From contig VGZH01000014.1 in assembly GCA_016872645.1 (NCBI GenBank), positions 1 through 64,000 of the forward strand: 64,000 bases of DNA, given 5' to 3'. This document shows positions 40,500 to 42,486 of this stretch, piece by piece (the first letter of the stretch is position 1; each line of letters opens with the position of its first letter). A program made the position numbers and the translations under genes. The notes under the pieces were generated by a model. It did no database searches, was not told the DNA's origin, and saw only the letters and a list, made by a program, of their open reading frames with translations. This stretch comes from Planctomycetota bacterium. GTDB lineage: Bacteria; Planctomycetota; Planctomycetia; Planctomycetales; Planctomycetaceae.

Positions 40500-40538
40500 A
40501 AACGGCCGTTTGACCCGCCTTTTCGGGTGACGTATAGT
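40500..40538 (+). promoter_or_regulatory. Sigma70-like promoter with overlapping palindrome
   Basis: TTGACC (40510-40515) and TATAGT (40533-40538) are separated by 17 bases. Each is one mismatch from consensus. A perfect 12-base palindrome AAACGGCCGTTT (40500-40511) overlaps the first two bases of the -35 and could be an operator. The spacer holds a small hairpin ACCCG/CGGGT. Transcription would begin near 40545, just before the leader peptide. Confidence 0.75.
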
Positions 40539-40567
40539 CCTTGCATCCTTTGAATAGGACAATTTCG

Positions 40568-40657
40568 ATGCGACGCCCCCCGACCAATCCGATCTCCATT
40601 ATCTCGGCCGTTGCCGGGATTGTGATTCCCGCCAGCGGCCTGTTTCGGCGGCATTGA
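40568..40657 (+). CDS. Isoleucine-rich leader peptide of cimA (29 aa)
   Basis: The peptide reads MRRPPTNPISIISAVAGIVI followed by PASGLFRRH and a TGA stop. It has five Ile codons and two Val codons between codons 9 and 20. AGGA lies eight bases before the ATG, and a good promoter lies 30 bases upstream. A hairpin overlaps the Ile codons and a terminator follows the stop. Such peptides act as sensors: the ribosome stalls at Ile codons when charged Ile-tRNA is short. The next gene makes citramalate for isoleucine synthesis, which fits exactly. The peptide itself probably has no other function. Confidence 0.85.
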   Translation: MRRPPTNPISIISAVAGIVIPASGLFRRH

Positions 40658-40714
40658 ACTTGGGGTCGTTTTTTTTGTCACGACGTTGCCACCCTCAGGT
40701 CGATCGCCTGAGGG
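40606..40714 (+). promoter_or_regulatory. Transcription attenuator of cimA
   Basis: Three mutually related RNA pairings can be drawn by hand. First, a pause hairpin pairs 40606-40619 with 40627-40640 (13 of 14 pairs, one C-C mismatch) across the last Ile and Val codons. Second, an antiterminator pairs ACTTGGGG (40658-40665, starting at the base after the stop codon) with CCTCAGGT (40693-40700), eight pairs including two G-U. Third, the terminator stem pairs 40692-40699 with 40707-40714. The second pairing takes up the 5' arm of the third. A ribosome finishing the leader would cover ACTTGGGG and let the terminator form; one stalled at Ile codons would not. Confidence 0.8.
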
Positions 40715-40726
40715 TTTTTTGTTTTT
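40692..40726 (+). terminator. Intrinsic terminator in cimA leader
   Basis: A perfect 8-base-pair stem, CCCTCAGG with CCTGAGGG, around a 7-base loop, is followed by TTTTTTGTTTTT. It lies between the leader peptide and cimA, not after a gene, as expected for an attenuator. It is the clearest intrinsic terminator I found in the window. Confidence 0.9.
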
Positions 40727-40860
40727 GGAGTGCGGTGTGTCAGCACCGTTTTGAATTTTTGGATTTTGATTTTCGATTTTGGATCGCAGCCTTCGTCACA
40801 ATCGAAAATCAAAATTCCACAATCAAAAATCCTCCAAAGCGGTGCTGACACACCGCACCT
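40727..40860. repeat. 134-base inverted repeat with 7-base periodic arms
   Basis: Outer arms (40730-40748 and 40840-40858) are 19-base perfect reverse complements that begin GTGCGGTGTGTCAGC. Inner arms pair GATTTTGATTTTCGATT with its near-complement at 40800-40818. The inner left arm is 7-periodic (GGATTTT, GATTTTC, GATTTTG). The outer sequence is kin to the element at 37539-37660. It sits in the cimA leader between the terminator and the ribosome-binding site. Confidence 0.85.
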
Positions 40861-40875
40861 CAAAGGTGACCGGTG

Positions 40876-42486
40876 ATGACCCGAATCCAAATCTACGACA
40901 CGACCCTTCGCGACGGCAGCCAGGGAGAGGGGGTGAACTTCTCGCTACAGGATAAGCTGCTCATCACACAGCGGCTTGATGAATTGGGATTCGACTTCAT
41001 CGAGGGGGGATATCCCCTGTCGAACCCCAAAGATGCTGAATACTTCCAGCGTGCGCGAGACCTCGATTTGAAGCACTCGACGGTCACGGCGTTCGGCATG
41101 ACACGGCGACGCGGAGCGGCACCCGAAGACGACACCGGCATGGTCGCGCTGCGAGACTCGCAGGCGAAGATTTGCGTGATCGTCGGCAAGACCTGGGACT
41201 TGCACGTCTACGAAGTGCTGCGCGTCGATGAGGCGGAAAATCTCGCGATGATTCGCGATTCGGTCGGGTTCCTGCACGCCGAGGGGCGGCGCGTCTTTTA
41301 CGATGCCGAGCATTTCTTCGATGGGTATCGAGCCAATCCCGAGTTCGCCCTCAAGACTATTAAAGCCGCCGAAGACGCTGGTGCCGAGATCGTCGTCCTC
41401 TGCGACACGAACGGTGGTCGGCTGCCGCAGGAGATCGCCGACGCGGTCAAAGCGGCCCGGCAAGCGTTGACGATCCCCGTTGGAATTCATTGCCACAACG
41501 ATTGCGATTTGGCGGTTGCCAATTCGCTGGCAGCGGTTGATGTCGGAGCGATTCAAATTCAGGGGACAATCAACGGCATCGGCGAACGGTGCGGCAACGT
41601 TGACTTGTGCAGCGTCGTTGCGAACCTCGCTCTGAAAAAAACCGGCTACGAAGTCTTGGCCGAAGGGGGCTTGACGCATCTCGCCGAGTTGTCGCGCTAT
41701 GTCTACGAACTTGCGAACATGAACTACCGCAACGGCCAGCCGTTTGTCGGCACCAGCGCATTCGCGCACAAGGGGGGTATGCACGTCCACGCGGTCAACC
41801 GCTTGGCGAAGAGCTATGAGCACATCGAACCGGAGACCGTCGGAAACGTGCGGCGAGTGCTCATCAGTGAGCTTTCGGGCAAGTCGAACATCGTGGCTAA
41901 GACGACGAAGTACGCGATCCAGAACGACTCGGCGATGATGCAGAAGATTCTCGACCGCGTGCAGGACTTGGAAAACGACGGCTTTCAATTTGAAGCGGCC
42001 GAGGCATCGTTTGACTTGTTGGTCCGCAAGATCGTCGGCCAGTACCAACCCAAGTTTGAAAGAGTCCATTACCGCGTGAACGTTGAATCAGACGGCGGAC
42101 TGCGGAACGAATCGGCCTCGGTCGCTTCAAAGGGCGCGATGGCACCGGCCACCGAAGCAACCATCAAACTGCAAGTCGCAGGTCGGCTGGAACACGTCGT
42201 CGCCGAGGGAGATGGCCCGGTCAACGCGCTCGACACGGCGCTGCGCAAGGCGTTGATCACGACGTACCCGAATCTCGCCGAGATGCAACTCGTAGACTAC
42301 AAGGTCCGCGTCATCAACTCGACCGCTGGCACGGCGGCTCGCGTGCGGGTGGTCATTGAAAGCCGTGATAATCACGAAGTCTGGACGACGGTCGGCGTCA
42401 GCGAAAACATCATCGAAGCCAGTTGGCTCGCGCTTGTCGACAGCGTCGAATACAAGCTCTTTAAGGATGAACAACTGGCGTCGTGA
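40876..42486 (+). CDS. cimA: (R)-citramalate synthase
   Basis: The 536-residue enzyme condenses acetyl-CoA with pyruvate, the first step of threonine-independent isoleucine synthesis. IQIYDTTLRDGSQGEGVNFS is the start signature of this DRE-TIM metallolyase, and IHCHNDCDLAVANSLAAVD supplies metal ligands. The C-terminal LeuA-type allosteric domain covers about 400-530. The EGVNFSLQDKL variant and overall length separate it from 2-isopropylmalate synthase. AAAGGTGA lies five bases before ATG 40876; a GTG three bases earlier is a less likely start. It is controlled by the leader attenuator at 40500-40726. Its last 26 bases overlap the end of the convergent hypothetical gene. Confidence 0.9.
   Translation: MTRIQIYDTTLRDGSQGEGVNFSLQDKLLITQRLDELGFDFIEGGYPLSNPKDAEYFQRARDLDLKHSTVTAFGMTRRRGAAPEDDTGMVALRDSQAKICVIVGKTWDLHVYEVLRVDEAENLAMIRDSVGFLHAEGRRVFYDAEHFFDGYRANPEFALKTIKAAEDAGAEIVVLCDTNGGRLPQEIADAVKAARQALTIPVGIHCHNDCDLAVANSLAAVDVGAIQIQGTINGIGERCGNVDLCSVVANLALKKTGYEVLAEGGLTHLAELSRYVYELANMNYRNGQPFVGTSAFAHKGGMHVHAVNRLAKSYEHIEPETVGNVRRVLISELSGKSNIVAKTTKYAIQNDSAMMQKILDRVQDLENDGFQFEAAEASFDLLVRKIVGQYQPKFERVHYRVNVESDGGLRNESASVASKGAMAPATEATIKLQVAGRLEHVVAEGDGPVNALDTALRKALITTYPNLAEMQLVDYKVRVINSTAGTAARVRVVIESRDNHEVWTTVGVSENIIEASWLALVDSVEYKLFKDEQLAS

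Follow-up and report, generated by a model that had tools for sequence, protein, structure and literature searches.

A predicted isoleucine-sensing leader-peptide attenuator upstream of cimA, with a leucine counterpart at leuA, in Planctomycetota

CimA commits pyruvate to the isoleucine pathway, and the question raised by the cimA locus in the 64,000-nt stretch of planctomycete DNA analyzed here (the window) is whether the short reading frame and the intrinsic terminator that precede the gene form a device coupling its transcription to the supply of isoleucine. The identity of cimA was confirmed with TIGR00977 (676 bits versus a curated cut-off of 450), and because aceE is divergently oriented upstream and the downstream gene lies on the opposite strand, cimA appears to stand alone behind the leader. 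On the forward strand, a promoter is followed by an Ile-rich leader ORF, a hairpin within its frame, a stop-adjacent strand, an intrinsic terminator, and cimA (Table 1); the attenuator parts occupy positions 40510-40726, in the order that an initial sequence-only reading had assigned to them over about 220 bases. The promoter named in that reading was likewise recovered and is kept in the genus, and promoter-grade sites (10/12) occurred at 2 per 700 nt here compared with 0.3 in shuffled sequence. The peptide encoded by the 29-codon leader is MRRPPTNPISIISAVAGIVIPASGLFRRH. It had been described as Ile/Val-rich, of which the length and the Ile content (five residues) stood, but not the Val content, as only two Val residues are present and the second is not conserved in the genus. 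The locus combines a promoter and short ORF, codons for the end product, a terminator before the gene, and a competing strand near the stop codon, which are the features by which attenuators are recognized. We therefore regard it as very probable that the cimA leader is a ribosome-mediated transcription attenuator sensing charged tRNA-Ile, the predicted signal being Ile and not Ile together with Val.

Table 1. Features of the cimA leader region, with positions counted from the first nucleotide of the window.
Feature	Position	Strand	Remarks
Promoter, sigma-70-type, TTGACC-17-TATAGT	40510-40538	+	-35 TTGACC at 40510-40515, 17-nt spacer, -10 TATAGT at 40533-40538, match 10/12; TTGACC and TATA.T invariant or almost so in 9 same-genus loci
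Possible Shine-Dalgarno AGGA of the leader	40556-40559	+	Read from the sequence; 8 nt before ATG
Leader ORF, Ile-rich, PISIISAVAGIVIP	40568-40657	+	29 codons; ATG at 40568, TGA at 40655-40657
Predicted main control codons ATC TCC ATT ATC (Ile-Ser-Ile-Ile)	40592-40603	+	ATCTCCATTAT invariant in the genus
13-pair hairpin within the leader frame, genus-specific	40606-40640	+	98% of cells paired, 9 sequences
Antiterminator strand (region 2), ACTTGGGG	40658-40665	+	Begins one base past the stop; pairs with 40693-40700
Intrinsic terminator and T-rich tail	40691-40726	+	Stem identical in almost all same-genus loci
MITE-like palindromic repeat, 135 bp, between terminator and cimA	40727-40861	.	Outside the attenuator; this genome only
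cimA, citramalate synthase, controlled gene	40876-42486	+	TIGR00977; alternative GTG start at 40873

Among ten same-genus genomes with a complete cimA, the leader, the position of its stop codon, the terminator, and the promoter were all kept in nine. The leader ORF in these loci has 29 codons (31 in L010) and encodes PISII.VAAGI.IPASG or a close version of it, and the distance from stop to terminator is 36-38 nt. The remaining complete locus, L009 (G010:C137), is the only one without the leader and has a different CDS directly upstream; a rearrangement or a misassembly is possible there.

The RNA structures proposed for the leader fared differently from one another. The terminator that had been claimed is a stem-loop of 10 pairs with a 5-nt loop (40691-40715) followed by T5GT5, and the antiterminator strand begins, as had been stated, at the base after the TGA stop and is complementary to CCTCAGGT in the terminator arm over eight pairs, two of them G-U. 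The hairpin in the leader frame consists of 8 + 5 pairs flanking a C/C mismatch, spans the last Ile-Val-Ile codons, and excludes the antiterminator strand; the pause hairpin of the sequence-only reading is thus present and conserved in the genus, but it is genus-specific and no general part of the device. Covariation in the stems had been proposed as a check. In the genus alignment (nine sequences), three pairs of the hairpin were changed on both sides, whereas no compensatory change was seen across the eight pairs of the antiterminator arm. Because the terminator hardly varies within the genus, this second count is uninformative and was replaced by a phylum-wide test of matched and permuted pairs (see below). 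Folding of the single leader sequence, also proposed, gave a structure whose advantage over shuffled sequence is modest (z = -2.4), for which reason significance rests on conservation, and the best fold of the ribosome-free window RNA did not include the 8-pair antiterminator. The window contains a second possible antiterminator as well, in which CGGCCTG pairs with CAGGTCG and can likewise keep the terminator from forming.

To place the leader in a broader context, 119 non-redundant cimA upstream regions, nearly all from Planctomycetota, were compared, and a strong terminator was present no more than 320 nt from cimA in 76 of them. Leaders were identified by an unbiased rule, under which any ATG-initiated ORF whose end lay 12-60 nt ahead of the terminator was taken and its Ile residues were counted per 14 residues. 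At least four Ile in 14 residues were found in 44 of the 76 terminator-bearing upstreams versus 0.7% of dinucleotide shuffles; Val was weakly raised in the same ORFs (12/76) and other residues little. Phylum-wide, 50 of 70 leaders had a promoter of at least 9/12 in the 110 nt preceding their start, compared with 4% in shuffles. Outside the genus, the leader peptides, for example MRPVIIVISIITTSSE (L014), MTTANASIIAIAIIITYPM (L116), MIYLINIITTIIIRYQ (L113, Sedimentisphaerales), and MSFPYSGRSLHVSTAIIAARIIVISIIGDV (L055), had Ile runs in common and were otherwise unalike, which favors a role for the codons over that of a functional peptide. The Ile-rich frame and the paired arms, whose recurrence in relatives the attenuator reading depended upon, both recur in the genus, in the family, and in other Planctomycetota families, as does the spacing between stop and terminator, with the Ile-Ser-Ile-Ile codons invariant in the genus and Ile-rich ORFs present phylum-wide. 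By family label, the device was found in 25/32 f1, 6/6 f3 (Gemmata and relatives), 3/3 f5, 1/2 f4, and 1/1 f7 loci; it was absent from all six f2 cimA loci and from 7/32 loci of the window's own family. The absence in f2 is apparently a lineage-specific loss. Five f2 loci (L035, L040, L045, L046, and L047) have no cimA attenuator, yet the f2 leuA upstreams L236 and L238 carry one. Further leaders, in L070, L081, L112, and L124, had been missed by the terminator filter; three loci were excluded, L016 and L049 because their ORFs were chance matches (that of L016 is the tail of a CDS lying upstream) and L114 because it was weak. Many leaders also have an AQGVR stretch between the Ile codons and the stop, encoded by DNA near GCGCAGGGAGTGCGC; these are of the Gemmata type and neighboring ones (e.g., L032, L070, L073, L077, L082, L086, L087, and L089), and the AQGVR-coding DNA may form a local stem.

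A metabolite riboswitch, a T-box, or a protein-bound leader could drive the terminator with the ORF being incidental, and the strong terminator, the conserved 5' region, and the both-sided changes in the genus hairpin would all fit such control. That hairpin is not general, however, whereas the Ile codons are, and no Rfam family, the T-box covariance model included, matched at gathering score in the window leader or in ten related leaders; we consider this explanation extremely unlikely. The Rfam hits in the window were all sub-threshold matches of miRNA models to the AT-rich palindromic repeat and were rejected.

The sequence-only reading had described the geometry of the antiterminator to the stop codon as what the mechanism needs. 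Terminator stems vary by lineage (CCCTCAGG, CCCCGGAG, CCCCGAAG, CCCTGAGGC, CCCTACC, and CCCTGCC), and the stop-proximal strand changes along with them, as in GTAGGGC with AGCCCTAC in L116 and CTTCGGGGT with ACCCCGAAG in L096. When a 24-nt window was moved along each leader and scored against the terminator 5' arm, pairing peaked at the stop codon (mean of -12.35 kcal/mol versus about -5 elsewhere), in lineage after lineage and with differing stem sequences, as the geometry claim would have it. Matched leader-terminator pairs scored -12.92 compared with -10.42 (sd 0.28) for permuted pairs, the best of 300 permutations reaching -11.32; the leaders in these pairing tests were chosen partly by Ile content. 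In a nascent-RNA folding model with an assumed ribosome footprint of ~15 nt counted from the A-site codon's first base, the terminator 5' arm was paired with the stop-proximal strand at 71% with the ribosome at the last usable Ile codon, at 4% with the ribosome at the stop codon, and at a mean of 44% with no ribosome. A general protector (1:2) hairpin that would hide the antiterminator strand was sought phylum-wide and not found, the upstream signal being weak; in ribosome-free RNA, the strand was sequestered by upstream sequence in several genus members and partially or not at all in the window and in many lineages.

From this arrangement, we infer translation of the leader, stalling of the ribosome, and Ile-dependent read-through in the following manner. 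RNA polymerase would start near position 40545 and make the leader RNA, with a ribosome following on the 29-codon leader. With ample Ile-tRNA, the ribosome would reach the stop codon at 40655 and cover 40658-40665, the terminator at 40691-40715 would form, and transcription would end before cimA. With scarce Ile-tRNA, the ribosome would stall at the Ile-Ser-Ile-Ile codons and leave the stop-adjacent strand free to capture the terminator 5' arm before the 3' arm is made, so that the polymerase would read into cimA.

The same layout was found at leuA in the same genomes, with Leu codons in place of Ile codons. A leader was present in 27 of 40 leuA upstreams, among them that of the window genome (L131, G000:C25; MRSSLRLLALSLLLR), and the unbiased rule gave at least four Leu in 17/18 leuA leaders and at least four Ile in 0/18, a comparison that marks the cimA leaders as Ile-specific. 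Complementarity to the terminator arm peaked at the stop codon here as well (-11.99 versus about -5). Matched and permuted leuA pairs did not differ significantly (-13.03 versus -12.52, sd 0.42) because most leuA terminators have the stem CCCTGAG, and the support for leuA therefore comes from the position profile. The leuA attenuators are thus like those of cimA in layout and stop-codon geometry and differ in having Leu codons and other terminator stems. Many leuA leaders have a TAG stop codon lying within the antiterminator strand. Upstream regions of ilvB, ilvC, ilvD, trpE, and hisG from relatives, by comparison, yielded one strong terminator in 94. Thus, the device sits at the branch-committing enzymes CimA (Ile) and LeuA (Leu) and not at shared steps, a simple and specific regulatory logic for these little-studied bacteria, in which Ile would be sensed at cimA and Leu at leuA, with the shared ilv genes outside such control. 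No threonine deaminase above the TIGR01127 cut-off was found in 17 planctomycete genomes (best match in the window genome, 70 bits), which, as judged by this one model, fits a pathway in which 2-oxobutyrate comes mainly through cimA here.

The two gene sets also bear on explanations in which the peptide itself matters. The short ORF and the terminator might together form a separate unit for a small functional peptide, cimA being transcribed from another promoter; the peptide is indeed well conserved within the genus (PISIIxVAAGIxIPASG), and such a promoter could lie within the repeat before cimA in the window genome. Outside the genus, however, Ile runs are all that the cimA leaders share, just as Leu runs are the sole shared feature of the leuA peptides; the terminator-to-cimA gap is short in most relatives, often <100 nt, and the explanation gives no role to the stop-terminator geometry and the matched complementarity. 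We judge it very unlikely. Nascent-peptide arrest of the TnaC type, in which the ribosome is stalled by a particular peptide that responds to free isoleucine within the exit tunnel, likewise combines a leader ORF and its stop codon with a termination decision farther downstream, but no peptide motif is conserved phylum-wide and the codon runs fit the end product in the cimA and leuA sets alike, so that we attach scarcely any probability to it and retain sensing of charged tRNA-Ile as the preferred reading.

Leader-peptide attenuators control ilvGMEDA, ilvBN, leuABCD, thr, his, and trp in enterobacteria. The device described here resembles them in having a short leader with many codons for the pathway product, a stop codon beside the antiterminator strand, and a mutually exclusive antiterminator and intrinsic terminator; it differs in occurring in another phylum, in its predicted control of cimA, and in that no general 1:2 protector hairpin was seen, and Ile alone is consistently enriched before cimA whereas enterobacterial ilv leaders combine it with Val and Leu. 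In Actinobacteria, candidate attenuators or leader peptides have been proposed for trp, leuS, and ilvB, together with a LEU element before leuA (PMC1262725). These predictions are similar to ours in being drawn from comparative genomics, in their codon runs, and in having leuA as a target, but the LEU element forms a pseudoknot and has no classical terminator, unlike the planctomycete leuA leaders; how ilvB is regulated was not settled there, and codon substitutions had no effect in Streptomyces coelicolor (PMC1262725). A broad survey in 2010 gave leader peptides as known from Proteobacteria and Actinobacteria only and added Firmicutes, where the His leaders of hisS/hisZ extend leader-peptide attenuation beyond those two phyla in the same way, albeit for another amino acid, gene, and phylum; Planctomycetes, cimA, and leuA are not mentioned in the text of that survey (PMC2965389). 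The sequence-only reading knew of no such leader for cimA or in planctomycetes, and no paper on either was found in the open-access literature; subscription journals lay mostly outside the search and priority is uncertain. The mechanism class, ribosome-mediated attenuation, is a known one, and its occurrence at cimA and in Planctomycetota is apparently new; judged by the open-access literature, no amino-acid-sensing attenuator seems to have been described before for the phylum, nor one for cimA. The leaders could also supply small parts responsive to isoleucine or leucine that are usable in planctomycetes.

For attenuation to work, the ribosome must trail RNA polymerase by no more than a few tens of nucleotides. 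The device was present at all six f3 loci examined, including a complete 9.0-Mb Gemmata genome, and in Gemmata sp. IIL30, and in the Gemmata-group cimA leaders L038, L039 (complete Gemmata genome of 8,999,201 bp), L041, and L096 the antiterminator strand directly follows the stop codon. In Gemmata obscuriglobus, translation is described as confined to non-nucleoid regions, according to the passages of PMC5287468 and PMC5394234 that cite Gottshall et al. 2014. Since the mechanism needs the ribosome near the polymerase, conservation of the leaders in Gemmata bears directly on the claimed spatial segregation of transcription and translation: if these leaders work, the two processes would be coupled at least at the genes they precede, and the disputed coupling becomes testable there. 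On balance, we lean toward the view that leader-peptide attenuation is ancestral for the control of cimA (by Ile) and leuA (by Leu) in Planctomycetota including Gemmata, which would imply that ribosomes closely follow the polymerase at these genes despite the reported separation.

The MITE-like repeat between terminator and cimA has ends GGAGTGCGGTGTGTCAGCACCG and CGGTGCTGACACACCGCACCTC flanking an AT-rich core, and the end motif recurs at dozens of sites in the genome. It is missing from the other cimA leaders compared and could give the cimA 5' UTR of the window genome a second hairpin.
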